Shown here: positions 1-11,312 of the stretch, piece by piece
Numbering within the stretch: the stretch's first letter is position 1
Layout of the letters: every line of letters starts with the position of its first letter
From: an uncultured Lachnospiraceae bacterium
GTDB lineage: Bacteria; Bacillota_A; Clostridia; Lachnospirales; Lachnospiraceae
Reading direction: 5' to 3'
Length of the DNA stretch: 11,312 nucleotides
Assembly (NCBI GenBank): GCA_900553635.1
Contig: USDU01000064.1
Location: 1-11,312, forward strand
The notes under the pieces: generated by a model
Told to the model about the DNA's origin: nothing
The model's input: the letters and a program-made list of their open reading frames with translations, nothing else
The model's database searches: none
Program-made: the position numbers and the translations under genes

Positions 1-3
1 AAA

Positions 4-53
4 TACCGACCTCCAATCGTTAGATTTTTAGGTCTAACTTTTGGGGGTCGGTA
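4..53. repeat. Long imperfect hairpin / inverted repeat
   Basis: Bases 4-16 pair with 41-53 over 13 positions (one T-G wobble). Inside, 19-24 pairs with 33-38 around an 8-base loop. No T-run follows directly on the plus strand; the next one is at 67-72. On the minus strand a T-run would begin at the window edge (bases 1-3 are A). It may be the terminator of a gene to the left, or a dispersed palindromic repeat. The structure is certain from the sequence; its role is not. Confidence 0.6.
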
Positions 54-88
54 CATTCCGGGTCTCTTTTTTATTAAAAAAACATGGA

Positions 89-117
89 TTGACGGTACTC
101 TCACATTGCAGTAAACT
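89..117 (+). promoter_or_regulatory. Putative sigma-A promoter P1 of the dehydrogenase gene
   Basis: TTGACG at 89-94 and TAAACT at 112-117 are separated by 17 bases. The match is 5/6 and 4/6 to consensus. It lies about 110 bases upstream of the start codon, in a 5' region that has no gene. Confidence 0.5.
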
Positions 118-125
118 AATCGTAA

Positions 126-154
126 TTGAAAGGCTACAAACAAAAGGCTATAAA
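126..154 (+). promoter_or_regulatory. Putative sigma-A promoter P2 of the dehydrogenase gene, with direct repeats
   Basis: TTGAAA at 126-131 and TATAAA at 149-154 are 17 bases apart, both close to consensus. The 8-base direct repeat AAAGGCTA occurs at 129-136 and 143-150, overlapping both promoter elements with a 14-base period. Such an arrangement could be an operator, but the regulator is not evident. A 6-bp hairpin (179-184 with 195-200) lies in the presumed leader, just before the ribosome binding site. Confidence 0.6.
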
Positions 155-226
155 ATAAAGAAAGATGCGACAAAGCAGTTGCCGGGCTGAAAGTCGGCAA
201 TTTGTGAGTAGAAGGAGGACGCAGCT

Positions 227-1189
227 ATGGCAATTTCATATGGAAAAATGGTAATCATCGGCGCCGGTAAGGTGGGAAGCGCGATTTTGAATTCGGTTCT
301 GCGGATGAATATCCTGGATGAGATCGTGGTGGTGAACCGCAACCAGAAAAAGGCCCTGGGCGAGGTGCTGGACGCCAGCCACACCACGGCGTTCGCCTAC
401 AGCGCCAATGCGAATATCCATGTGGGCGGCTACGAGGAGTGCGCGGACGCCCAGATCATCGTGGTGACTGCAGGCCCCAGCATCCAGCCGGGTAATTCCC
501 GTGACCGTATGGTGCTGCTTGAGAAAAATGTCAACGTCATGAACGATATTATGGAGCAGATCACCCGCTATACCCGGGAGGCCATCATCATCGTGGTGTC
601 CAATCCGCTGGACATCCTGACCTACATTGCCCAGAAGAAATTCGACTATCCGGCCAATAAGATTTTCGGTACAGGCACTTTGCTTGACACCGCACGCTTC
701 AATAAGATGCTGGGCGACCTCTGCGGCGTGGACGCCAAGAACGTGACCGGTTTCGTGCTGGGCGAGCACGGCTCCACCTCCTTTATCCCCTGGAATACCG
801 TGAACATCGTGGGCGTGCCATTTTCGGAATTCGAGAAACAGTTTGAATTAAAGGAAAAACTCGACAAAGAAAAGCTGCTCCATGATACGAAGGTCATCGG
901 CCTGGATATCGTAGAGCTGAAGGGCTACACCAGCTCCGGCGTGGCCTTAAGCGCCTGCCGTCTGATCGGCAGCATTGTCCGCAACGAGAAATCCGTCGTG
1001 CCGGTTTCTACAGTTCTGTCGGGACAGTACGGCCTCACCGGAGCAGCCATGAGCCTGCCCTGCGTTATTTCCAAGAACGGCATTGACCGGGTACTGGAGC
1101 TGCCCCTGGACGAGCAGGGAAAGAGCGACCTGCAGAAGTGCTATGAGCATCTGCGGACGGCCATCGAGAGCGTGTATACAGAAGCATGA
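227..1189 (+). CDS. ldh: L-2-hydroxyacid dehydrogenase, lactate/malate dehydrogenase family
   Basis: A cytoplasmic NAD(P)-dependent oxidoreductase of 320 residues, the normal length of the LDH/MDH family. It would interconvert a 2-oxoacid (probably pyruvate) and its L-2-hydroxyacid, re-oxidising NADH in fermentation. Visible features are the Rossmann loop GAGKVG (12-17), SNPLD (125-129), the catalytic LLDTARF with Asp154 and Arg157, and LGEHGS with proton-acceptor His181. The start follows AAGGAGG at 212-218 with 8 bases of spacing. Two positions are unusual. The substrate-specificity position (Gln in typical LDH, Arg in MDH) appears to be Ile86 in GPSIQPGNSR. The acidic residue normally ending beta-2 is Asn37 followed by Arg38. 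The exact substrate and cofactor are therefore open; a branched-chain hydroxyacid is an alternative to lactate. It is a single-gene unit with its own promoters and terminator. Confidence 0.85.
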   Translation: MAISYGKMVIIGAGKVGSAILNSVLRMNILDEIVVVNRNQKKALGEVLDASHTTAFAYSANANIHVGGYEECADAQIIVVTAGPSIQPGNSRDRMVLLEKNVNVMNDIMEQITRYTREAIIIVVSNPLDILTYIAQKKFDYPANKIFGTGTLLDTARFNKMLGDLCGVDAKNVTGFVLGEHGSTSFIPWNTVNIVGVPFSEFEKQFELKEKLDKEKLLHDTKVIGLDIVELKGYTSSGVALSACRLIGSIVRNEKSVVPVSTVLSGQYGLTGAAMSLPCVISKNGIDRVLELPLDEQGKSDLQKCYEHLRTAIESVYTEA

Positions 1190-1198
1190 GTCATTAGG

Positions 1199-1233
1199 TA
1201 CCGCCAGTCATAAAGAGGACTGGCGGTAATTTT
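1199..1233 (+). terminator. Rho-independent terminator after the dehydrogenase gene
   Basis: An 11-bp perfect stem pairs 1199-1209 with 1218-1228 around an 8-base loop. It is followed by a short weak T-run (AATTTTAT). It begins 10 bases after the stop codon. Confidence 0.75.
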
Positions 1234-1359
1234 ATGTAACAGTTTGATGGATATAAATTTATGCATTACTAAGAATTTCTCAGGAGTTACGTAGTCATAT
1301 TTTAAATAGGTAATCTGGGTAAAAATTTGGTAAATTCCTGTATACAATATATAAATCTA

Positions 1360-1388
1360 TATACAGACCTGACGGTATATGATATAAT
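1360..1388 (+). promoter_or_regulatory. Promoter of the folate operon (extended -10)
   Basis: TATAAT at 1383-1388 is a perfect -10 and is preceded by TG plus one base (1380-1382), an extended -10. TATACA at 1360-1365 is a 4/6 -35 with 17 bases of spacing. Transcription would start near 1395, about 30 bases before the riboswitch. The stretch 1234-1359 upstream is AT-rich and I see no gene in it. Confidence 0.7.
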
Positions 1389-1423
1389 GCCCTTTGGTAA
1401 CAATTTATAACAATAGAATAATA

Positions 1424-1520
1424 TGCAAAATAGGTTTTCATGCGTCAAGTGTTCAGCGGATAGGGAGTTGCCGCCGAAACGAAAAGTTCGTCTTACGGTA
1501 TGGAGACCGCACCCGTTGCA
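1424..1520 (+). promoter_or_regulatory. Tetrahydrofolate (THF) riboswitch, folE leader
   Basis: The leader folds like the class-I THF riboswitch. P1 pairs TGCAA (1424-1428) with TTGCA (1516-1520). P2 pairs 1433-1441 with 1500-1508, nine pairs including two G-U. The conserved GCGTCAAGTG segment (1442-1451; GCGUUAAGUG in known members) follows P2. P3 pairs GCGG (1456-1459) with CCGC (1471-1474), and its loop carries GGG (1463-1465). The conserved ACGAA is at 1479-1483. The 3' junction GCACCCG (1509-1515) matches the family's GCAUCCG and can form the long-range GGG/CCC pseudoknot. No strong U-tracked terminator follows, so control is more likely at translation. It is expected to lower expression of the folE operon when reduced folates are plentiful. 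The assignment is from remembered consensus and hand folding. Confidence 0.88.
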
Positions 1521-1585
1521 GCAATATAAGATTAAATGAACAGCGTCTCATATTGTGAAGGGATATTTTCGTCATATGTTCTGTC

Positions 1586-1603
1586 ACAGCCTGGAGGTGC
1601 TGT
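1586..1603 (+). promoter_or_regulatory. folE ribosome binding site within a small hairpin
   Basis: GGAGG at 1593-1597 lies in the 8-base loop of a 5-bp hairpin (ACAGC 1586-1590 with GCTGT 1599-1603). It stands 10 bases before ATG 1608 and decides that start over the in-frame ATG at 1536. The flanking GGTGC (1596-1600) is complementary to GCACC (1509-1513) in the riboswitch 3' junction, a possible but unproven switching contact. Confidence 0.55.
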
Positions 1604-1607
1604 TTTT

Positions 1608-2165
1608 ATGATGGATTATGAGAAAATCAAGGCCGGAGTCCAGCTTATGCTGGAGGGAATCGGCGAGGATGTAACAAGAGAAGGCTTATTGGAGACGCCG
1701 GATCGGATTGCGCGTATGTGCGCTGAGATCTACGGCGGCCTGTATGAGGATGCGTCGGTGCATCTGAAAAAACAATTCACAGTCGAGCGGAACGACATCG
1801 TAGTAGAGAAGGATATCACCTTCTATTCCGTGTGCGAACATCATTTACTCCCCTTTTACGGAAAAGCGCATATCGGGTATATACCGAACGGTAAAGTAGT
1901 AGGCTTAAGCAAGCTGGCCCGTACCGTAGATGTATTTGCCAGAAGACCCCAGATTCAGGAAAAGCTCACGTCCCAGATCGCGGACGCGCTGGAGGAAAGC
2001 CTGGATCCCCAGGGTATTATCGTCATGCTGGAGGCTGAGCACATGTGTATGACCATGCGCGGCATCAAAAAGCCCGGCAGCAAGACCGTCACCATGGTGA
2101 CCACCGGCTGCTTTGAGAACAATTTTGAACTGCAGAACCGTTTTCTGAGCATGGTGCGCCAGTAA
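1608..2165 (+). CDS. folE: GTP cyclohydrolase I
   Basis: It converts GTP to 7,8-dihydroneopterin triphosphate and formate, the first committed step of folate synthesis. From ATG 1608 it is 185 residues, typical for bacterial FolE. Visible motifs are ETPDRIARM near the N-terminus, the zinc and active-site region [20 protein letters not shown] (Cys and His ligands), [21 protein letters not shown], and [17 protein letters not shown] with the second zinc Cys. The start is set by GGAGG at 1593-1597; the in-frame ATG at 1536 adds 24 residues that do not fit the family and have no ribosome binding site. It is the first gene of the operon, directly behind the THF riboswitch. Its stop overlaps the next start by one base (TAATG), suggesting translational coupling. 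Confidence 0.96.
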
Positions 2166-2650
2166 TGGGCGGCATGGAGCGCGTAAACCGGATCTGGAAT
2201 CACCCGGCCTATCAGGAGGCCCTGGGAAAGCTGACGGCCTACGAGGCAGAGCGGGAATTCTGCCGCCATACGCCGGAGCATTTTCTTGCTGTGGCCCGCC
2301 TGACTTATCTGCTTGCCCTGGAAAATGGGGTGGCCGCCGATCGGGAAGTTATCTACGCAGCAGGGCTCCTGCACGATATGGGCAGATATCTCCAGTATGA
2401 AAATGGGACGCCCCACGACGAAGCAGGCGTCATGTTGGCCGGGCCCATTTTGCAGGACTGTGGTTTTTCGGAAGGCGAGAGCGCTGAAGTGCTGAAGCTC
2501 ATCGGAAGCCACCGGACCAAAAGCGACAAGGCCGACCTGCCGGGATTGTTCTACCGGGCGGACAAGCTGTCGCGGAACTGTTTTCTATGTCCGGCCCAGG
2601 CAGACTGCAACTGGCCGGAGGAGAAGAAAAATTTAGAAATTCGATTATAG
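2165..2650 (+). CDS. HD-domain phosphohydrolase in the folate operon
   Basis: A soluble 161-residue protein of the HD metal-dependent phosphohydrolase superfamily. Visible are His39 (RHTPEHF), the HD pair His70-Asp71 in GLLHDMGR, His84, His116 (LIGSH) and Asp133 (YRADKLSR), the usual metal-ligand pattern. The C-terminus has a compact Cys cluster (Cys139, Cys142, Cys148) in RNCFLCPAQADCNW, which could bind metal. It overlaps folE by one base and is followed by folP, so it is co-transcribed and co-regulated with folate genes. Its substrate cannot be read from the sequence. Position in the operon suggests a phosphatase acting on a pterin phosphate, perhaps the dephosphorylation of dihydroneopterin triphosphate or monophosphate for which no other gene is seen here. 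That role is inference. The ATG at 2174 (Met4) is an alternative start. Confidence 0.85.
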   Translation: MGGMERVNRIWNHPAYQEALGKLTAYEAEREFCRHTPEHFLAVARLTYLLALENGVAADREVIYAAGLLHDMGRYLQYENGTPHDEAGVMLAGPILQDCGFSEGESAEVLKLIGSHRTKSDKADLPGLFYRADKLSRNCFLCPAQADCNWPEEKKNLEIRL

Positions 2651-2728
2651 CCCGGAAAGGAGAGTAATTGTTTCATAAAGCCGGAAGTAATTATTGCGGA
2701 GGGCGCAGAACAGTTACGGTGAAAATTT

Positions 2729-3544
2729 ATGAAAATCGGAAGCAAAGAATTCAACGTAAAAAATAAAACCTATATCATGGGAATTCTGAATGTAACCCCG
2801 GATTCCTTCTCTGACGGCGGCAAATGGAATCACATGGACGCAGCGCTGGCCCATGCGGAGGATATGATCCGCGAAGGCACCGCCATTCTGGATATCGGCG
2901 GCGAATCCACCCGTCCCGGACACCAGCAGATTACCGAGGACGAGGAAATCCAGCGGGTAGCTCCGGTCATCGAAGCAGTGAAAGCCCGCTTCGATGTCCC
3001 TGTGTCCATCGATACCTACAAGGCAAAGGTGGCAGCCGCAGCCATCGAGGCAGGCGCCGATCTGGTCAACGATATCTGGGGCCTGAAATACGACCTGGAG
3101 ATGGCCGGACTCATCGCCCGCACCGGAGTGGCCTGCTGTCTGATGCACAATAAGAACAATACAGAGTATCAGGATTTCTACCCGGATATGCTGCAGGAAA
3201 CCGCGGAGTGCGTAAAGCTTGCGAAGGAAGCGGGTATCGCCGACGATAAGATTATCCTTGATCCGGGCGTAGGTTTTGGAAAAAATTACGAGCAGAATCT
3301 GGAGACCATTTTACATATGGAGCGGTTCCATGAGCTGGGCTATCCCATGCTGCTTGGCACATCCCGTAAATCCGTTATCGGTCTGACCCTGGATTTGCTG
3401 GCGGATCAGAGAGTAGAGGGAACCCTGGTGACGACCGTGATGGCTGTGATGAAAAAGTACGCCTTTGTCCGGGTTCACGACATCAAAGAAAATCAGCGCA
3501 CGATCCAGATGACCGAGGCGATTCTGAGAGCAGGAGAGAACTAA
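2729..3544 (+). CDS. folP: Dihydropteroate synthase
   Basis: It joins 6-hydroxymethyl-7,8-dihydropterin pyrophosphate to p-aminobenzoate, giving dihydropteroate; this is the sulfonamide target. At 271 residues it is normal length. Motifs in order: GILNVTPDSFSDGG (18-31), DIGGESTRPG (55-64), SIDTYK (93-98), VNDIWG (113-118), DPGVGFGK (178-185), GTSRKSVIG (210-218) and RVHD (248-251). The TIM-barrel signature residues are all present. The start follows GGTGA at 2718-2722; an in-frame stop at 2720-2722 excludes a longer protein. A 78-base gap separates it from the HD gene, the only loose junction in the operon, and I see no promoter or terminator in the gap. The stop is immediately followed by the next start codon. 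Confidence 0.97.
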   Translation: MKIGSKEFNVKNKTYIMGILNVTPDSFSDGGKWNHMDAALAHAEDMIREGTAILDIGGESTRPGHQQITEDEEIQRVAPVIEAVKARFDVPVSIDTYKAKVAAAAIEAGADLVNDIWGLKYDLEMAGLIARTGVACCLMHNKNNTEYQDFYPDMLQETAECVKLAKEAGIADDKIILDPGVGFGKNYEQNLETILHMERFHELGYPMLLGTSRKSVIGLTLDLLADQRVEGTLVTTVMAVMKKYAFVRVHDIKENQRTIQMTEAILRAGEN

Positions 3545-4357
3545 ATGGATAAAATACAGATCAAAAACCTGGAAATATTTGCCAATCACGGCGTATTCCC
3601 GGAAGAAAATAAACTGGGACAGAAATTTGTCATTTCCGCGACCCTTTACACTTCCACCCGGAAGGCGGGAAAGACGGACGATTTGACTGCCTCCATTCAT
3701 TACGGCGAGGTCAGCCAGTTCATCACAAAATTTGTTCGGGAGCACACCTGGAAGCTATTGGAAACGGTGGTGGAGCAGTTAGCAGAGGCTATGCTTCTGA
3801 ACATCCCCCATCTGGAAAAGGTGGAGCTGGAGATCAAAAAACCCTGGGCTCCGGTGGGACTGCCCCTGGAGACCGTGTCTGTCTCCATCGAGCGGGGCTG
3901 GCACACCGCCTACATCGCTATGGGATCTAACATGGGCGACAAAAAAGCTTATCTGGACATGAGCGTGCTTGGACTGCAGCTCACGAAAGGCTGTATCGTA
4001 GAGACAGTGGCCGATTACCTGGCCACCGAGCCCTACGGCTACACCGATCAGGACGAATTCCTGAACAGCGTCATGAAGATCCGAACCATTCTGCCGCCCC
4101 ACGAGCTCCTCGACCGGCTCCATGAGCTGGAGCAGGAGGCCAACCGGGTCCGCGTGATCCACTGGGGTCCCCGGACGCTGGATCTGGATATTTTATTGTA
4201 CGATGATCTGATTCTTGACGATGAGGAGCTTCATATTCCCCATATCGAGATGCACAAGCGGGATTTCGTGCTGATTCCGTTGGCACAGATCGCGCCCTGG
4301 GTGCGGCATCCGGTGTATAACCAGACGGTGCAGGAGCTGCTGGATAGATTAAAATAA
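3545..4357 (+). CDS. folB-folK: Bifunctional dihydroneopterin aldolase / HPPK
   Basis: A 270-residue fusion carrying two consecutive folate steps. Residues 1-118 are dihydroneopterin aldolase: HGVFPEEN with the conserved Glu21, the SIHYGEV strand, Glu73 in KLLETV, and catalytic Lys99 in IKKPWAP. Residues 121-270 are 6-hydroxymethyl-7,8-dihydropterin pyrophosphokinase: YIAMGSNMGD, EPYGYTDQDEFLN (pterin pocket), WGPRTLDLDILLYDD with Mg-binding Asp213 and Asp215, and IPHIEMHKRDFVLIPLAQIAP. No linker beyond a few residues separates the domains, so the intermediate 6-hydroxymethyl-dihydropterin could pass between them. It starts directly after the folP stop, with AGGAGAG at 3532-3538 as ribosome binding site, and is the last gene of the operon. 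Fused FolBK proteins are known in Clostridia. Confidence 0.95.
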   Translation: MDKIQIKNLEIFANHGVFPEENKLGQKFVISATLYTSTRKAGKTDDLTASIHYGEVSQFITKFVREHTWKLLETVVEQLAEAMLLNIPHLEKVELEIKKPWAPVGLPLETVSVSIERGWHTAYIAMGSNMGDKKAYLDMSVLGLQLTKGCIVETVADYLATEPYGYTDQDEFLNSVMKIRTILPPHELLDRLHELEQEANRVRVIHWGPRTLDLDILLYDDLILDDEELHIPHIEMHKRDFVLIPLAQIAPWVRHPVYNQTVQELLDRLK

Positions 4358-4411
4358 GAAAAGCGGCGGCGGTTTTCACATAGACGGGATTACGGAAAAA
4401 CAGTAAAAAAT

Positions 4412-4468
4412 AAAAAGCAAGACAGGACTGTATCATGGAAATTTAGGATACGTCCTGTCTTGCTTTTT
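4412..4468. terminator. Bidirectional terminator shared by the folate operon and tRNA-Ser
   Basis: A 17-bp perfect stem pairs 4412-4428 with 4452-4468. It is extended by GTATC (4430-4434) with GATAC (4447-4451) after one bulged base. The A-run on the left and T-run on the right give a U-tract in both directions. It ends the plus-strand folB-folK transcript and the minus-strand tRNA transcript. Confidence 0.9.
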
Positions 4469-4480
4469 GCTATAAAGAAA

Positions 4481-4569
4481 CGGAGGAGGAGGGATTTGAA
4501 CCCTCGCGCCGGTGCTACCGACCTACTGGTGTTCGAAGCCAGACCCTTCAGCCACTTGGGTACTCCTCC
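4481..4569 (-). tRNA. tRNA-Ser (anticodon CGA)
   Basis: An 89-base class II tRNA. Reading the minus strand: acceptor GGAGGAG pairs with CTCCTCC; the D arm is CCC-AAGTGGCTGAA-GGG; the anticodon loop is TTCGAAC with CGA at 34-36, reading UCG codons. The long variable arm pairs GTCGG with CCGGC, the T arm is GAGGG-TTCAAAT-CCCTC, and the discriminator is G, as expected for serine. CCA is not encoded. The top pair of the anticodon stem (31-39) is a C-A mismatch, which is unusual. The other four anticodon-stem pairs are standard. Confidence 0.92.
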
Positions 4570-4592
4570 ATTGCTGAGAACCAGCGACTAAT

Positions 4593-4621
4593 AGTATAAT
4601 ATATTTTCCGATGCATTTCAA
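4593..4621 (-). promoter_or_regulatory. Promoter of tRNA-Ser
   Basis: On the minus strand TTGAAA (4621-4616) and TATACT (4598-4593) are 17 bases apart. The -10 ends 23 bases before the first base of the tRNA. Confidence 0.75.
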
Positions 4622-4734
4622 GAGCGGGATTTCAAAATCGCCTGCCTGTGTTATGGTACAGAGGATCTGATTTATATAAAAGAAAACCATTTTGGTGCTT
4701 CACTACATTCTATAAGTGTAAGATAAAATTCTTA

Positions 4735-4746
4735 TAAGTCGACTTA
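4735..4746. promoter_or_regulatory. 12-base perfect palindrome upstream of the sigma factor gene
   Basis: TAAGTCGACTTA is its own reverse complement and lies 28 bases before the sigma gene. TATAAGT occurs as a direct repeat at 4711-4717 and again at 4733-4739, the second copy overlapping the palindrome. It could be an operator. I could not place a convincing sigma-A or ECF promoter in 4622-4774. Confidence 0.35.
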
Positions 4747-4774
4747 AAGAAGAAAGGTAAAAGGATAACCATTT

Positions 4775-5314
4775 ATGAATGATCATGAAATCGAGCAGTT
4801 TATCCTTACATATGGCTGTGATATTCTGCGCTTTTGCCGAATGACTGCCGGCGGAAGCGAGGCAGGAGACGATCTGTATCAGGATACCATGCTGAAGCTG
4901 ACTGAAAAAAAGCAGACATTACTGCTTGGCCCGCACACGAAAAGTTATGCCTTATCCACAGCCTTGTTTCTCTGGAAAAACAGCAGAAGAAAATACGCCG
5001 CAAGAAACCGCATACTTCCTATGGAAAGTGTGGAGGCGCTGGAAGATACCGGCTGGCAGTGTCCGGCTCAGGCCAGTGTCATTTCCCCGGAGCAGGAGCT
5101 TTTGCAGCAAAATGAACTGGAGACGGTACGAGGTGTTGTTGCCGCTTTGCCTGAGAAATATAAGCTGCCCGTTTACCTGTTTTATTCTGCCGATATGCGG
5201 ATCTCCGAAATAGCGGAAATTCTGCACATTCCGGAGGGGACGGTAAAAACAAGGCTCAGAAAGGCGAAAAATTTATTAAAAGCCAGATTGGAGGCACTCG
5301 GTTATGAACGATGA
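4775..5314 (+). CDS. ECF-type RNA polymerase sigma factor
   Basis: A 179-residue sigma-70 family protein of the extracytoplasmic-function size class, with regions 2 and 4 only. Region 2 lies near residues 10-75 (ILRFCRMTAG, DDLYQDTMLKL). Region 4 near 118-175 has LPEKYKLPVYLFYSADM, then the helix-turn-helix ISEIAEILHIPEGTVKTRLRKAK that reads the -35 element. A polar linker (about 80-112) joins them. The start at ATG 4775 follows an AAAGGAT site at 4760-4766. The stop overlaps the next gene by 11 bases, the usual arrangement for a sigma factor and its anti-sigma partner. It would direct a small regulon, probably including its own gene, after a surface signal; neither signal nor regulon can be read here. 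Confidence 0.92.
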   Translation: MNDHEIEQFILTYGCDILRFCRMTAGGSEAGDDLYQDTMLKLTEKKQTLLLGPHTKSYALSTALFLWKNSRRKYAARNRILPMESVEALEDTGWQCPAQASVISPEQELLQQNELETVRGVVAALPEKYKLPVYLFYSADMRISEIAEILHIPEGTVKTRLRKAKNLLKARLEALGYER

Positions 5315-6458
5315 GAGACTGGAGCAGCTTTTAAAGCAGGCCCTTATTCCTGAAATTAAGGAGGACGATTTGAAAATGAAGAGAAAGATAAGAAGTTCAT
5401 CTGTAACTCATAAAACTGTTCCAAGAAGAACGATAAAAAATCGGAGGCACCTTCCGGCAGCAGTGGCTGTGGCAGCACTTCTCATAGCCTCATCTGTTAC
5501 TGTCTTTGCTGCCTGGCACTATCTCTCTGCCAGGGACGTGGCAATGGCCAATGCGGACGAGCAGCTGGCTTCGCATTTTGAGCAGAGCAATTGGCTTTCA
5601 GAATATGAGACACAGCACTGCAGTGATTATGATATCACACTTCTGGGTGTGGTCTCCGGCAACGAAATCTCCGAACATTTATCCAAGGATGATCAGGGCA
5701 ATGTGGATGGAGACAGGACCTATATTGCGGTAGCTATCGCCTACGCAGACGGAAAGCCCATGCCGGATGTGCAGAGCGACGACTTCGAGCGCACACAATT
5801 TTTTGTATCCCCCTATATTCATGGCCTCAACCCGGAAAAATATAATGCCTATACCTTAAGCGGCGGCGTTACCTGCTTTGTCTCAGACGGGATCCAGTAC
5901 CGGCTGGTGGAGACTGACAATGTGGAATACTTTGCGGACTGCGGCATTTATGTGGGAGTGTCCGATGGCGATACGTATAATAATCAGGCATACATCTATG
6001 ATACGGATACCGGTGAAATACTCAGGAGCGAGACCTATCAGGGGGTAAATGCCCTGTTTGACTTGCCGGTAAACACTGCAAAAGCAGATTCTGTAAAAGC
6101 TTCCGGAATTATCACCGACATCAATGATTCGGAATCGAACGGAGGATATCTTTGGATATTATCGGAGGGCGACCGGTGGCTCAACAGCCTTACGACGGAA
6201 AATATAAATGAAAAAGCCAAACCGGTGGAAGACTCCAGAAAAACCGTTACCGCAGAGGAATTTATCTTTGAGGAATCCGGAGAAACATTGGCTGACGCGG
6301 ATACGGCTGCTGCAATTATGAAAGAATATTTCCCGGACGGCGCCGGAATGAGTGTCATCATGGAAAAACATACGGCCGCCATGGACGATGCCTGGGTGGA
6401 GACCTATACGCTGAATCCGGACGGAACGATTACCTGTCTGAGATATGTTCCCAGATAG
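5304..6458 (+). CDS. Membrane-anchored probable anti-sigma factor
   Basis: A 384-residue protein with one transmembrane segment at about 50-70 (hydrophobic, after a Lys/Arg-rich stretch at 24-48). This leaves a short cytoplasmic N-terminus and an outside domain of about 310 residues. The outer part begins with WHYLSARDVA and has YDITLLGVVSGNEIS near 108-122. This resembles the DUF4179-type proteins found beside ECF sigma factors in Clostridia, although that family name is from memory. The N-terminus lacks the His-x3-Cys-x2-Cys zinc anti-sigma motif. It starts inside the sigma gene, with GGAGG at 5290-5294, nine bases before ATG 5304, so the two are coupled. Its probable role is to hold the sigma factor at the membrane until a signal reaches the outer domain. 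The role is inferred from context; direct evidence for sigma binding is absent. Confidence 0.75.
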   Translation: MNDERLEQLLKQALIPEIKEDDLKMKRKIRSSSVTHKTVPRRTIKNRRHLPAAVAVAALLIASSVTVFAAWHYLSARDVAMANADEQLASHFEQSNWLSEYETQHCSDYDITLLGVVSGNEISEHLSKDDQGNVDGDRTYIAVAIAYADGKPMPDVQSDDFERTQFFVSPYIHGLNPEKYNAYTLSGGVTCFVSDGIQYRLVETDNVEYFADCGIYVGVSDGDTYNNQAYIYDTDTGEILRSETYQGVNALFDLPVNTAKADSVKASGIITDINDSESNGGYLWILSEGDRWLNSLTTENINEKAKPVEDSRKTVTAEEFIFEESGETLADADTAAAIMKEYFPDGAGMSVIMEKHTAAMDDAWVETYTLNPDGTITCLRYVPR

Positions 6459-6513
6459 CGTCCTTTAAAAGTTGTAAGAAACCATATCGTATACACTGAG
6501 TTCTAACAGTAAA

Positions 6514-6555
6514 AAAACGGGTACAAGCCGGCAACGCTGGGTTTGAACCCGTTTT
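6514..6555 (+). terminator. Terminator after the sigma/anti-sigma pair
   Basis: AAAACGGGT (6514-6522) pairs with ACCCGTTTT (6547-6555), extended by CAA with TTG across an A-A mismatch. The final T-run serves the plus strand; the A-run on the left could also serve minus-strand readthrough. Confidence 0.8.
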
Positions 6556-6559
6556 CTCA

Positions 6560-6846
6560 ATTCATGGCGGTCAATCATGCTGCTTATAAGTATTTCTCAC
6601 GAAGATAGTCAGCCTGTTCCTGTGTGATTGCATTGCTCCATTGATTGGAATCTCTGTCAAAAGCTGAATGCAGTCTGATTCAGCAAAACTATTATCTATT
6701 TGATTATTGTGATGAAGTTCTAAAAAATATCGGAGAGATGATAGATATTGATTTTAGAAAACCCGCCAAATCTTGTATTTACTGGGTTTGACTGGTGTTT
6801 TGTATTTAGTTACCTGCAAAAGTTAGGATATATTTCCCATAAATTT
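6560..6846. other. AT-rich gene-poor stretch with two opposed short frames, possible gene remnants
   Basis: No complete gene is visible. On the minus strand, 6679-6584 reads as a 31-residue C-terminal-like tail ending SNAITQEQADYLREKYL then stop, with an upstream stop and no start. On the plus strand, 6645-6791 is an open frame (TTG start, 48 codons) containing QQNYYLFDYCDEVLKNIG and ending in a stop. Neither has a ribosome binding site. The two overlap on opposite strands at 6645-6679, so at most one is authentic there. Both have protein-like composition, consistent with debris of a deleted gene, but chance open frames are possible. Confidence 0.35.
6758..6789 (-). terminator. Weak terminator of the minus-strand membrane protein gene
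   Basis: AAACCC (6759-6764) pairs with GGGTTT (6784-6789), with AAAT/ATTT pairing inside. Read on the minus strand the hairpin ends in a GGGTTTT run. It is about 60 bases beyond the stop codon of the gene at 6847. The stem is short and interrupted. Confidence 0.4.
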
Positions 6847-7698
6847 TCAAGTCCAGTCCTCCATAACAGTCTCCCGCAAAGCTAGCGTTCCGCCGTGCTC
6901 GATTACATAATCCGCATATTCCCGTGCCTCTTCGACCTGTCCGATCTCTCGCAGATAAGTGCTGAGCATTCCGGCGAACATGACCTGCTCATAGGGGACG
7001 CGTGGCCGGGCGGTCTGAAGCCGTTTTACGGCCTGTTCCCGTCGGTCCTCCAGCCAGTCCAGCCGGGCCAGGAGGACTGTGCTTTGCTTCAGCGGTCGTC
7101 CGCCCTGGGTAAGAATACTGCGGTAGCGCTGGGCGTCCTGATCCTGATAAGCGTAATGAGCCTGGATGTTCAAGGAAAGCTGGCGGTATACCAGAGTGTT
7201 TTGCTTGGATGTCCAGCCATTTCTCATATAAAGCTCCGCTGTGTCCACCTGTCCGCAGGCTAGCAGCGCTTCTACATAAAGCTGCTCAAAGAAGCGCCGT
7301 TGTCGTCTGGCTACATTCCGAGCCTGCTTCTGATTTTTGTATATATCGTAGGGGACATATCGCGTTCCTTCATCGGCGATACGAAGGAGGCGCTTGGCGT
7401 CACAGTCCATATACAGAATATTCCGGAGTGCCTTAAAATTTTTCACCCCTGCAGCGCCGCCCCGGATCACAGCCAGCAGCCCGGAAACCAGAATAATCAG
7501 ATACATCAGCCAGTTTTTCTCCCAAAACCACCCGTCGACTCGATAAGTAAATCCGGCTGTCGTCACTGTCCGCGAAAACGGCGGTCCCAGCAACACACTC
7601 GTAAGCATCATCAGCACGATAATTGCCGCAAAGTACAAAGTTAGATTCTGACGCACAGCGCGTTTCACATTTTGATAATAGGTAGTCAGTTCAGTCAT
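6847..7698 (-). CDS. Two-TM membrane protein with TPR-like helical tail, unknown function
   Basis: A 283-residue protein that I do not recognise as a named family. A basic N-terminus (Lys12, Arg13, Arg16) is followed by a transmembrane segment at about 19-38, a roughly 25-residue loop rich in aromatic residues (DGWFWEKNW), and a second segment at about 62-78. From about 90 on it is soluble and helical, with Ala/Leu/Tyr-spaced stretches such as EQLYVEALLACGQVDTAELYM and EIGQVEEAREYADYVIEHG, reminiscent of tetratricopeptide repeats. The tail probably faces the cytoplasm and could bind a partner protein. The start is ATG 7698, which has AGGGTGAT just upstream; the in-frame GTG at 7707 overlaps that site and is less likely. 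It stands alone, divergent from the phosphofructokinase gene. Confidence 0.75.
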   Translation of the reverse strand: MTELTTYYQNVKRAVRQNLTLYFAAIIVLMMLTSVLLGPPFSRTVTTAGFTYRVDGWFWEKNWLMYLIILVSGLLAVIRGGAAGVKNFKALRNILYMDCDAKRLLRIADEGTRYVPYDIYKNQKQARNVARRQRRFFEQLYVEALLACGQVDTAELYMRNGWTSKQNTLVYRQLSLNIQAHYAYQDQDAQRYRSILTQGGRPLKQSTVLLARLDWLEDRREQAVKRLQTARPRVPYEQVMFAGMLSTYLREIGQVEEAREYADYVIEHGGTLALRETVMEDWT

Positions 7699-7731
7699 AA
7701 TTATCACCCTTTTTCGAAAGAATATAATTTA

Positions 7732-7737
7732 ATTATA
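7732..7737 (-). promoter_or_regulatory. Possible -10 element for the membrane protein gene
   Basis: The minus strand has a perfect TATAAT 33 bases upstream of ATG 7698. No good -35 lies at 16-18 bases; ATATTT is the best seen. The call is weak because the DNA is AT-rich. Confidence 0.35.
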
Positions 7738-7816
7738 ACGCATTTTCAGGAAGAAAATATGATTTTTCTCTTAAAAATTGGCATAAAAATCTGCCCGGGC
7801 GATCCGTCTCAACCCC

Positions 7817-7845
7817 TTGTGAGAATCCCCAATCTATGCTAAACT
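7817..7845 (+). promoter_or_regulatory. Promoter of the phosphofructokinase-dnaX-ybaB-recR unit
   Basis: TTGTGA (7817-7822) and TAAACT (7840-7845) have 17 bases between them. TG plus one base (7837-7839) precedes the -10 as an extended element. The predicted start is near 7852. Confidence 0.6.
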
Positions 7846-7858
7846 AACCATAAGTATT

Positions 7859-7902
7859 GCCATGCACCCTCAGCATCGGAGCACACACTACAGATGCATG
7901 GC
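7859..7902 (+). repeat. 8-bp inverted repeat in the phosphofructokinase leader
   Basis: GCCATGCA (7859-7866) is the exact reverse complement of TGCATGGC (7895-7902), with 28 bases between. It begins a few bases after the predicted transcription start and ends 18 bases before the ribosome binding site at 7920. It could be a leader stem or an operator. No terminator T-run follows it, and I do not recognise a riboswitch class. Confidence 0.45.
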
Positions 7903-7932
7903 GCGCAAATTAAATATATGGAGGCATGCAAT

Positions 7933-9006
7933 ATGAAAAGAATCGGAATGCTGACCAGCGGCGGAGATTGTCAGGCGCTGAATGCTACAATGCGTGGAAT
8001 CGTAAAGGGTGTATGCAACGCACTGGATGAGGTAGAGCTTTACGGCTTTGAGGAAGGCTATAAGGGCCTGATTTACGGAAATTACCGGATGCTGACCCCG
8101 AGAGATTTTTCGGGAATCCTGACCAAGGGCGGAACCATCCTGGGAAGCTCCCGCCAGCCCTTCAAAATGATGCGGGTGCCGGATGAAAACGGACTGGACA
8201 AGGTAGAGGCCATGAAGCATACCTACCATAAGCTGCGTCTGGACTGCCTGGTGATTCTGGGCGGAAACGGAACCCAGAAGACTGCCAACCTTCTTAGGGA
8301 GGAGGGCCTGAATATTATCCATATGCCGAAGACCATCGATAACGATATCTGGGGCACGGATATGACCTTTGGTTTTCAGAGCGCAGTGGATATCGCTACG
8401 GATTGCATCGACTGTATCCATACCACGGCAGCCTCCCACGGCCGTGTATTCATCGTGGAGGTTATGGGACACAAGGTAGGACAGCTGACCCTGCACGCAG
8501 GTATCGCCGGAGGAGCGGATATCATTCTGATTCCGGAGATCCCCTACAGCATCGACAGTATCTGCCAGGCCATAGAGGCCCGCAATAAGCAGAAGAAGGG
8601 CTTCACCATTCTGGCGGTGGCAGAGGGCGCGATTCCCAAGGAGCGCGCCGAAATGAGCAAGAAGGATTTGAAGAAATTCATGGAGACCTACAAGTATCCG
8701 ACCGTGTCCTACGAGATTGCGGCTCAGCTGACCGAGCGCTTAGGCACCGAGGTCCGCGTCACCGTTCCGGGCCACACCCAGCGGGGCGGAAGTCCCTGCC
8801 CCTACGACCGGGTCCTGTCCACCAGACTGGGCGCGGCTGCTGCACAGGCCATCGTAGACGACGCTTATGGATACATGATTGGTATTGTCAATGGGGAATG
8901 CCAGCGGATCCCGCTGGAGGAGTCCGCAGGCAAGCTGAAGTTTGTAGACCCGAATTCTTCCATTATATCAGAGGCGAAGATGATAGGCATCAGCTTCGGA
9001 GATTAA
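7933..9006 (+). CDS. pfkA: 6-phosphofructokinase (ATP or PPi donor unclear)
   Basis: It phosphorylates fructose 6-phosphate to fructose 1,6-bisphosphate in glycolysis. From ATG 7933 it is 357 residues, longer than the roughly 320 of E. coli or Bacillus PfkA. Visible are the N-terminal GMLTSGGDCQALNATMRG, KGGTILGSSR (65-74), GGNGTQ (110-115), PKTIDNDIWGTD (132-143) with catalytic-base Asp136 and Asp138, MGHKVGQLTLHAGIAGGAD, and PGHTQRGGSPCPYDR for sugar-phosphate binding. GGAGG at 7920-7924, 8 bases before ATG 7933, sets the start; the in-frame ATG at 7894 adds 13 residues without a site. Gly113 is typical of ATP enzymes and Lys133 of PPi enzymes, while the usual Asp before Gly113 is Asn. The donor is therefore ambiguous. 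It lies 22 bases upstream of dnaX, probably in one transcript. Confidence 0.93.
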   Translation: MKRIGMLTSGGDCQALNATMRGIVKGVCNALDEVELYGFEEGYKGLIYGNYRMLTPRDFSGILTKGGTILGSSRQPFKMMRVPDENGLDKVEAMKHTYHKLRLDCLVILGGNGTQKTANLLREEGLNIIHMPKTIDNDIWGTDMTFGFQSAVDIATDCIDCIHTTAASHGRVFIVEVMGHKVGQLTLHAGIAGGADIILIPEIPYSIDSICQAIEARNKQKKGFTILAVAEGAIPKERAEMSKKDLKKFMETYKYPTVSYEIAAQLTERLGTEVRVTVPGHTQRGGSPCPYDRVLSTRLGAAAAQAIVDDAYGYMIGIVNGECQRIPLEESAGKLKFVDPNSSIISEAKMIGISFGD

Positions 9007-9028
9007 AACAACAAAGGGGAATTGATAC

Positions 9029-10678
9029 ATGTCGTATATGGCCCTCTACCGGAAGTTTCGACCTACAGAGTTCAGTGACGTCCGGGGACAGGATCACATT
9101 GTAACCACACTGAAAAATCAAATCAATGCAGACAGAATCGGACATGCCTACCTGTTTTGCGGTACCCGCGGTACCGGAAAAACAACGGTTGCGAAGATCT
9201 TCGCCCGGGCGGTGAACTGTGAACACCCGGTGGATGGCAACCCCTGCGGAACGTGCGCGGCCTGCCGCTCTATAGCGGCAGGCACTTCCATGAATGTGAT
9301 AGAGATCGACGCCGCCTCCAACAACGGCGTGGACAACATCCGAGAGATCCGCGACGAGGTAGCCTACTCGCCCACCGAGGGTAAATACAAGGTCTATATC
9401 ATCGACGAGGTGCATATGCTCTCCATCGGAGCCTTTAACGCCCTCTTAAAGACCCTGGAAGAGCCGCCCTCTTACGTTATCTTCATTTTGGCGACCACCG
9501 AGGCCCACAAGATTCCGGTGACCATCCTGTCCCGGTGTCAGCGGTATGATTTCCGGCGCATCACGGCGGACACTATCACCGCGAGACTTCAGGAGCTGAC
9601 GGAGAAAGAGGGCGTGGAGACGGAGGAGAAAGCCCTGCGCTACATCGCCAAGGCGGCCGACGGCTCCATGCGAGACGCGTTAAGCCTCCTGGACCAGTGC
9701 ATCGCCTTCTACCTCGGGCAGAAGCTGACGTACGATAAAGTCCTTGAAGTTCTCGGAACTGTTGATACCGAAATCTTCAGCCAGATGCTCCGCACGATCC
9801 TCGCCGGGGATGTAACGGGAAGCATCCGCACGCTGGAAACCCTTTTAAACCGCGGAAAAGAGCTGGGACAGTTCGTTACCGACTTTACGTGGTATCTGCG
9901 GAATCTGCTGTTGGTAAAAAGCGCAGATGAAACCGAAGAACTGCTCGACGTCTCTACAGAAAACCTGAAGCTCTTAAAAGAAGAGAGCACGATGGTAGAC
10001 GATGAGACGCTGATCCACTATATCCGCGTTTTATCCGAGCTCTCCGGCCAGCTCCGCTATGCGGCGCAGAAGCGCGTGCTCGTTGAGGTGGCGCTCGTCA
10101 AACTCTGCAAACCGCAGATGGAGCAGAACCTCGAATCCGTGCTGGAGCGTCTTAGGATTCTCGAAGAAAAAATGGAGCGCGGAATCCCGATGATGGTGAC
10201 AAATGCACCGGGAGCAGGAAACGGCAGTGCAGGAGGCTCCGGAGCGGCCGGAGACGGCTATGCGTCGGCAGAAACACCGCAGAGTGCACCGGCACCAGTG
10301 AAAGCCGCACCGGCGGATTTACAGCGCATCAGCGCGTCCTGGAAGGCAATTGTCGGCCAGACAAGCGGCATGTTCCGCCAGTTTCTGCAGAGCGCCGTTC
10401 CGAAATACAACAGCGAGACGGGCGACGCCAAACTGTTTGTTGAGTTTGCAGACCAGCTCGCATCGATTTACGTTGAGCGGCCGGAGGCAGCCGATGAGAT
10501 CCGCACCATTATTGAACAGATGACTGGAAAAACCGTAGAGGTCCAGCTCATTTTAGCAGACCAGCATGCAAACGCCGCGCTCTCCACGATTTCCGTGGAT
10601 GATGCACTGACGCAGGCGATTCATGGAATCCCGGTCGAGGAGGACGACGAGAGCGACTTCGACGACGGGGAAGAATAG
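9029..10678 (+). CDS. dnaX: DNA polymerase III subunits gamma/tau
   Basis: The clamp-loader ATPase that opens the sliding clamp and organises the replisome. At 549 residues it is a full-length tau for Firmicutes. The N-terminus YRKFRPTEFSDVRGQD is diagnostic. Then come Walker A GTRGTGKT (45-52), zinc-binding Cys64, Cys73, Cys76 and Cys79, Walker B IIDEVH (124-129), sensor LATTE (154-158) and the SRC arginine finger (168-170). A Gly/Ala/Pro-rich linker at about 391-430 separates the C-terminal tau part, which ends in a strongly acidic tail. The start follows AAAGGGGA at 9013-9020. No classical slippery heptamer for programmed frameshifting is seen. Glutamate codon use changes from 14 GAG to 2 GAA before about 9700, to 17 GAG to 15 GAA after it (hand count). 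Confidence 0.96.
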   Translation: MSYMALYRKFRPTEFSDVRGQDHIVTTLKNQINADRIGHAYLFCGTRGTGKTTVAKIFARAVNCEHPVDGNPCGTCAACRSIAAGTSMNVIEIDAASNNGVDNIREIRDEVAYSPTEGKYKVYIIDEVHMLSIGAFNALLKTLEEPPSYVIFILATTEAHKIPVTILSRCQRYDFRRITADTITARLQELTEKEGVETEEKALRYIAKAADGSMRDALSLLDQCIAFYLGQKLTYDKVLEVLGTVDTEIFSQMLRTILAGDVTGSIRTLETLLNRGKELGQFVTDFTWYLRNLLLVKSADETEELLDVSTENLKLLKEESTMVDDETLIHYIRVLSELSGQLRYAAQKRVLVEVALVKLCKPQMEQNLESVLERLRILEEKMERGIPMMVTNAPGAGNGSAGGSGAAGDGYASAETPQSAPAPVKAAPADLQRISASWKAIVGQTSGMFRQFLQSAVPKYNSETGDAKLFVEFADQLASIYVERPEAADEIRTIIEQMTGKTVEVQLILADQHANAALSTISVDDALTQAIHGIPVEEDDESDFDDGEE

Positions 10679-10711
10679 ATTAAAAACAAATTTTTCAGGA
10701 GGATATTACCC

Positions 10712-11065
10712 ATGGCAAAAAGAGGAGGATTCCCGGGAGGAATGCCGGGCAACATGAACAATCTGATGAAGCAGGCGCAGAAAATGCAGAAGCAGATGGA
10801 AGAGAACCAGAAAGCACTGGAGGAGAAAGAGTTCACTGCGACAGCAGGCGGCGGAGCCGTAGAAGTAACCATTTCCGGTAAAAAAGAAGTAACCAAAGTT
10901 AAAATCAGCGAAGATGCCGTAGATCCGGACGACGTAGAAATGCTCGAGGATCTGATCATGGCAGCAACCAACGAAGCACTGCGCAAAGTTGAGGACGAGG
11001 CAGCCAAAGCTATGGGCAAACTCGCCGGCGGACTTGGCAGCATGGGCGGAGGATTCCCGTTCTGA
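10712..11065 (+). CDS. ybaB: Nucleoid-associated protein, YbaB/EbfC family
   Basis: A small DNA-binding protein of 117 residues (family about 100-115) that acts as a dimer and is thought to influence nucleoid structure, often linked to recombination. It has a Gly/Met-rich N-terminus ([11 protein letters not shown]), a Gln/Lys/Glu-rich helix ([20 protein letters not shown]), the core strands [20 protein letters not shown] and [20 protein letters not shown], and a Gly-rich end. AGGAGG at 10697-10702 stands 9 bases before the ATG. It sits between dnaX and recR, the conserved bacterial order, and its stop overlaps the recR start by one base. Confidence 0.95.
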
Positions 11066-11312
11066 TGGATTACTACAGCGGATACATCAATCAGTTGATC
11101 GAGCAGCTGTCCCATCTGCCTGGCATCGGTGTGAAAACCGCACAGCGACTGGCCTTTCATATTATGAATATGCCGGCCGACCAGGCAAAACGGCTGGCCG
11201 ATTCGATCACAGAAGCAAAATCCCACGTCCAGTACTGCAAGTGCTGCCAGACCCTGACCGACAAAGAGCTGTGCCCGATCTGCGCAAATGTCAAGCGCGA
11301 CCACAGCGTGAT
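11065..11312 (+). CDS. recR: Recombination mediator RecR, N-terminal part (cut by window end)
   Basis: Only the first 82 codons are in the window. RecR works with RecO and RecF to load RecA at single-strand gaps. The helix-hairpin-helix LPGIGVKTAQRLAFHI (18-33) and the four-Cys zinc motif (Cys58, Cys61, Cys70, Cys73) are visible; the Toprim domain lies beyond the edge. The start codon overlaps the ybaB stop (TGATG), so translation is probably coupled. No break in frame is seen up to the edge. Confidence 0.95.
   Translation, partial: MDYYSGYINQLIEQLSHLPGIGVKTAQRLAFHIMNMPADQAKRLADSITEAKSHVQYCKCCQTLTDKELCPICANVKRDHSV

Follow-up and report, generated by a model that had tools for sequence, protein, structure and literature searches.

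An HD-domain protein from a clostridial folate operon as a FolQ2-type candidate for the dihydroneopterin triphosphate step

INTRODUCTION

The contig USDU01000064.1 (assembly GCA_900553635.1) of an uncultured Lachnospiraceae bacterium, of which we analyzed positions 1–11,312 on the forward strand (the whole 11,312-nt stretch is called the window here), carries a folate operon that raises the question of which enzyme removes phosphate from the 7,8-dihydroneopterin triphosphate made by FolE. An open reading frame (ORF) for an HD-domain protein lies between folE and folP, and the initial annotation put its product forward as a candidate for the missing dihydroneopterin phosphate phosphatase. The same idea was published in 2007, when the dihydroneopterin triphosphate pyrophosphatase gene was described as still missing in most genomes and HDIG proteins encoded in folate clusters were named “FolQ2,” alternatives to FolQ, in a prediction marked as not experimentally verified (PMC1971073). 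Later work described a Nudix protein as the Escherichia coli enzyme for dihydroneopterin triphosphate (PMC5526541), and a 2019 reconstruction of folate synthesis in the gut microbiome counts FolQ2 among its options (PMC6593275). Our searches of open-licence papers turned up no experimental test of FolQ2.

Here, we suggest that the HD protein is probably a FolQ2-type dinuclear HD phosphohydrolase of the folate pathway acting on dihydroneopterin triphosphate, with the substrate and the bond cleaved both predicted from sequence and gene context. This interpretation is reasonable and rediscovers the 2007 prediction, for which the genetic case is strengthened here. What is added is the link with complete pterin branches, fusions to FolC, a predicted six-ligand metal site, a fourth cysteine, and the near-invariance of all four cysteines. 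Because the HD genes are found mostly in folate operons of Clostridia from gut and soil, the dihydroneopterin triphosphate step is directly testable there, and the family would firm up reconstructions of folate production by gut bacteria.

RESULTS AND DISCUSSION

The HD gene of the folate operon

The reading of the locus as a FolE, FolP, and FolBK operon under a tetrahydrofolate (THF) riboswitch was borne out, as the three proteins each passed an NCBIfam equivalog cut-off and the aptamer was recovered at full length (Table 1). The folE ORF was listed from position 1536, and its start at 1608 is suggested by GGAGGTG at 1593–1599. The HD-superfamily assignment also held: the protein matched PF01966 (HD) at 49.1 bits against a gathering score of 22 (E = 8e−13) and TIGR00277 (HDIG) at 30.2 bits, slightly above the cut-off of 27.6, and the Pfam scan gave no match to a Nudix domain in it. 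Since the ATG of the HD ORF and the TAA of folE have one base in common (TAATG, positions 2163–2167), translational coupling of the two genes, as had been claimed, is plausible.

The HD ORF is a conserved gene: among about 5.8 billion proteins searched, 551 were homologs at E ≤ 1e−3, the best 120 of which were listed. Column 4 of the alignment held Met in 113 of 116 rows, with a gap ahead of it in most; because most homologs begin at the second Met, the true start may be position 2174. The predicted structure had a mean pLDDT (predicted local distance difference test) of 92.9. Its top match, an HD hydrolase from an uncultured Thermotogales (PDB 2pq7), has no known function, carries Pro at the position of C33, and gives a profile match that stops before C139–C148. 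Matches to the HD domains of Cas3 and Cas10 were weak, and a defense-system reading was rejected.

Link with complete pterin branches

Whether homologs track folE and folP had been set in advance as a check. A profile built from 33 homologs and the window yielded 80 named loci, the best of at least 252 species-representative genomes encoding a relative, with record titles that include Lachnospiraceae, Oscillospiraceae, Ruminococcus, and Clostridium. Because these loci were the best-scoring ones and hence biased toward close relatives, we added a sample of 196 genomes drawn evenly from the class, which we take to be Clostridia, of the genome of a Blautia locus (G001 and L010; G and L denote our genomes and loci). 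At least 90% completeness was requested for this sample, the individual values not being printed. The HD protein was present in 38 of the 196 genomes with matches of at least 157 bits, separated by a clean gap from the next match, which scored 56 bits and covered the domain only in part. G001 itself was among the 38, with the same gene as L010.

FolP was over the cut-off in 58 and FolE in 64 of the 196 genomes. All 38 HD-positive genomes had FolE, FolP, and FolB, and none of the 8 genomes with FolE and without FolP had the HD protein. For the 64 FolE-positive genomes, the HD/FolP table was 38/0/18/8 (Fisher p = 3.5e−4), a value that is only indicative because the genomes are related. The HD family tracks the pterin branch and is tightly linked with complete pterin branches. 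A housekeeping nucleotide hydrolase resembling YpgQ or YqeK, placed in the operon by chance, is very unlikely: its appeal is that the fold and the HDIG motif are generic and that 2pq7 is functionally uninformative, but all 138 sampled genomes in which FolP did not exceed the cut-off lacked the HD protein, and its gene remains close to folate genes in several different gene orders.

Gene neighborhoods, FolC fusions, and riboswitches

The HD gene lay less than 400 bp from folE, folP, folB, or folK on the same strand in 78 of the 80 named loci and 35 of the 38 class-sample loci, as measured on ORF extents, so that the homologs do track folate genes. In the window and in two Clostridium loci (L062 and L063), the order is folE-HD-folP-folBK; elsewhere, the HD gene was seen ahead of folP, downstream of folK, or downstream of folC. 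Three class-sample loci fall outside the 400-bp limit. The HD gene lies 488 bp ahead of folP in G179. In G193 (L143), it opens a run that continues with genes for a glutamine amidotransferase (GATase), a chorismate-binding enzyme, and a class IV aminotransferase, followed by folE, folP, folB, and folK, and in G148 (L142) it is flanked on one side by a chorismate-binding-enzyme gene, itself preceded by a GATase gene, and on the other by a 3-deoxy-D-arabino-heptulosonate 7-phosphate (DAHP) synthase gene. These neighbors could be pab or trp genes.

FolC was fused to the HD protein or encoded within 400 bp in 11 of 118 loci, among which L083 repeats L010 and 20 are just about 3.5 kb long, so that FolC could be missed there. 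Two of these, L103 and L104, encode FolC-HD fusions of 552–560 aa behind THF riboswitches, with the HD part C-terminal and the N-terminal part identified as FolC by TIGR01499 (317 and 319 bits; cut-off, 163). Such fusions, together with the pab- or trp-like clustering in two genomes, suit a wider folate role, in which the HD protein would regulate FolE or FolC or clear damaged pterin or folyl phosphates, and the cysteines described below could then be a sensor. We consider this improbable; the six HD ligands kept in every aligned sequence argue for catalysis.

A THF riboswitch preceded the cluster in 8 of 12 loci chosen from the 80 named ones and was found in 3 of 17 scanned loci outside that set (L103, L104, and L115). 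Of the 38 HD-positive genomes, 20 had such a riboswitch somewhere and 8, by coordinates, had it ahead of the HD cluster. Control by a riboswitch is thus common near the window's relatives and is not general.

Metal ligands and conserved cysteines

Conservation was assessed on the 120 ORFs scoring above 100 bits, which gave 117 distinct sequences and, with the window, 118. The initial annotation had named H39, H70-D71, and D133 as intact ligands, which satisfy the superfamily signature H...HD...D in all 118 sequences. That set was correct as far as it went and incomplete, because H84 and H116 are equally invariant and belong to it. According to PMC8177086, the extended motif H...HD...H...H...D identifies a dinuclear site, such as that of the diadenosine tetraphosphate (Ap4A) hydrolase YqeK, and the HD family has this motif throughout. 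The HD protein would carry a dinuclear metal site formed by H39, H70, D71, H84, H116, and D133. E27, R30, H35, R45, Y64, and R137 are also kept in all 118 sequences. The cysteine cluster reported earlier (positions 139, 142, and 148) is present without exception, and a fourth residue that had been overlooked, C33, belongs to the set and is replaced only once, by Gly in L064.

Proposed reaction and comparison with known systems

We propose that the HD enzyme would act between FolE and FolB, taking 7,8-dihydroneopterin triphosphate and removing phosphate at the dinuclear site. The most likely cleavage would release pyrophosphate and leave the monophosphate, as with the Nudix enzyme FolQ and as reported, on nucleotides, for the HD enzyme YpgQ. 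The reaction might continue to dihydroneopterin, in the way that the HD enzyme OxsA acts stepwise on its own triphosphate substrate. The four cysteines, if close together in the fold, may bind either an iron-sulfur cluster or a metal with a structural role. A bolder version, in which this one enzyme strips all three phosphates, replaces both FolQ and the “nonspecific” phosphatase in folate-making Clostridia, and, through its cysteine site, makes the step depend on redox state or on metal, appears unlikely.

The HD family most likely corresponds to the FolQ2 that de Crecy-Lagard et al. (2007) predicted, whose C. perfringens example, CPE1020, is likewise an HDIG-superfamily protein in a clostridial folate cluster (PMC1971073). 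By superfamily and cluster the window protein fits this definition, and family, genus, and context suggest orthology to CPE1020; C. perfringens was not among the best 120 of the 473 homologs of the C. celatum protein. FolQ/NudB shares the proposed reaction and the pathway position, and its Nudix fold is unrelated to the HD fold.

YpgQ of Bacillus subtilis is described as a mononuclear HD diphosphatase acting on NTPs and dNTPs and is cited as a nucleotide pyrophosphohydrolase (PMC8177086). It has the same fold, was among the fold matches, and likewise carries a His four positions ahead of its first ligand (H25/H29 in YpgQ, H35/H39 here), but its ligands are H29, H58, D59, and D124, to which the HD family adds two His ligands and four cysteines. 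YqeK has the six-ligand motif in common with the HD family and differs in its substrate, Ap4A. YqeK was not among the 50 fold matches listed, which is evidence in neither direction; no YqeK model was among the NCBIfam matches listed for the HD protein, and the YqeK entry 2O08 was not among the 3 chains matched. OxsA removes phosphates successively from a nucleoside-analogue triphosphate (PMC8177086). In this it resembles the proposal, but four protein ligands are named for it, and its substrates are oxetanocin-A phosphates. The archaeal pterin enzyme MptB is an Fe-dependent HD protein. As a cyclic phosphodiesterase, it works on a dihydroneopterin phosphate in pterin-cofactor synthesis (PMC3087415); its substrate is the 2′,3′-cyclic phosphate from MptA, whereas that proposed for the HD protein is the triphosphate from FolE.

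Several observations weigh against assigning the HD protein to this step. HD phosphatases bear a conserved Arg, typically three residues ahead of the first His (PMC8177086), but the HD family has D (57), T (18), G (18), or N (17) there among the 118 sequences, with T in the window and the residues of the other 8 not printed. The invariant R30 lies nine residues ahead of the first His and may not substitute for the usual Arg. The sampled genomes are related, so that the counts are not independent. The HD gene stands apart from folate genes in L036 and L048, the remaining two of the 80 named loci; both genomes also encode FolE, FolP, and FolB. The FolC fusions and the pab- or trp-like neighbors point to a pathway rather than to a step. 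The HD protein was absent from 20 of the 58 FolP-positive genomes, 18 of which had FolE, and the Nudix tests described below give no separation of HD-positive from HD-negative genomes.

Nudix searches and HD-negative genomes

None of the ORFs of at least 60 aa in 138 loci (the 80 named ones and L083–L140) fitted a strict Nudix-box pattern; because these include 20 HD-negative loci, the result does not separate the two groups. Probing the 58 FolP-positive genomes with E. coli NudB gave 4 weak matches (26–35 bits), 2 in HD-positive and 2 in HD-negative genomes, and no search with Lactococcus FolQ was made.

These searches bear on a division of labor in which another enzyme, for example, a Nudix protein, would take the pyrophosphate and the HD protein only the last phosphate, as YfbR does on deoxynucleoside monophosphates. 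HD monophosphatases such as YfbR and YGK1 are known (PMC8177086), the genetic context fits either step equally, and Nudix genes may still lie elsewhere in these genomes. However, the HD monophosphatases described in that source are mononuclear, whereas the HD family keeps six ligands, and the Nudix-box pattern went unmatched in the scanned loci; we therefore give this division little credence.

Because 20 of the 58 FolP-positive genomes lack it, the HD protein is not a general solution but one among others. FolB is present in 19 of these 20, the exception being G095. We searched their 20 folP neighborhoods for a replacement, scanning 1–2 neighboring genes with Pfam in 14 of them. In 4 of the 14, a calcineurin-like phosphoesterase gene (PF12850) lay immediately upstream of an extended folP of 393–397 aa. 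The phosphoesterase is a possible unrelated replacement for the HD step, kept merely as a lead because PF12850 proteins are common. A gene for a protein of about 211–221 aa past folK in HD-negative loci had no Pfam match.

Table 1. Features of the window and of related loci (window positions unless a locus is named)
Feature	Position	Strand	Remark
THF riboswitch aptamer, RF01831	1424..1520	+	81.9 bits (gathering score 36); 1-99/99
folE, GTP cyclohydrolase I	1608..2165	+	PF01227 247.5 bits; TIGR00063 231.1 bits, above cut-off
HD-domain hydrolase ORF, FolQ2-type candidate for dihydroneopterin triphosphate phosphohydrolase	2165..2650	+	161 aa
Four near-invariant cysteines, stretch	2261..2608	+	118-sequence alignment
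C33	2261-2263	+	117/118
C139	2579-2581	+	118/118
C142	2588-2590	+	118/118
C148	2606-2608	+	118/118
Six predicted metal ligands, stretch	2279..2563	+	each 118/118
H39	2279-2281	+	predicted metal ligand
H70-D71	2372-2377	+	predicted metal ligands
H84	2414-2416	+	predicted metal ligand
H116	2510-2512	+	predicted metal ligand
D133	2561-2563	+	predicted metal ligand
folP, dihydropteroate synthase	2729..3544	+	PF00809 269.6 bits; TIGR01496 309.8 bits, above cut-off
folBK, fused dihydroneopterin aldolase and HPPK	3545..4357	+	PF02152, PF01288; TIGR00525, TIGR01498 above cut-offs
tRNA-Ser	4480-4570	-	anticodon cga
ECF-type sigma factor gene and overlapping ORF	4775-6458		second ORF 384 aa
FolC-HD fusion	L103:2794-4473		
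FolC-HD fusion	L104:2773-4428		
PF12850 gene	L129:6088-6585		
PF12850 gene	L131:5774-6274		
PF12850 gene	L135:4019-4504		
PF12850 gene	L140:5969-6529		
Pfam-less gene after folK	L121:6585-7217		HD-negative genome
Pfam-less gene after folK	L131:2918-3580		HD-negative genome
Pfam-less gene after folK	L135:6749-7381		HD-negative genome
queC gene	L119:4877-5551		
Clostridiales-1 RNA, RF01699	L003:2293-2455		

Other features of the loci

In L119, queC separates folE from the HD gene, and this folE may therefore contribute to queuosine as well as folate synthesis. In L003, a Clostridiales-1 RNA separates the HD gene from folP. In the window, the tRNA-Ser gene stands just past the folate operon on the opposite strand, and farther along is a gene for a sigma factor of the extracytoplasmic function (ECF) type. 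The ORF that follows and overlaps this gene had no NCBIfam match and possibly encodes an anti-sigma or membrane partner of this sigma factor.
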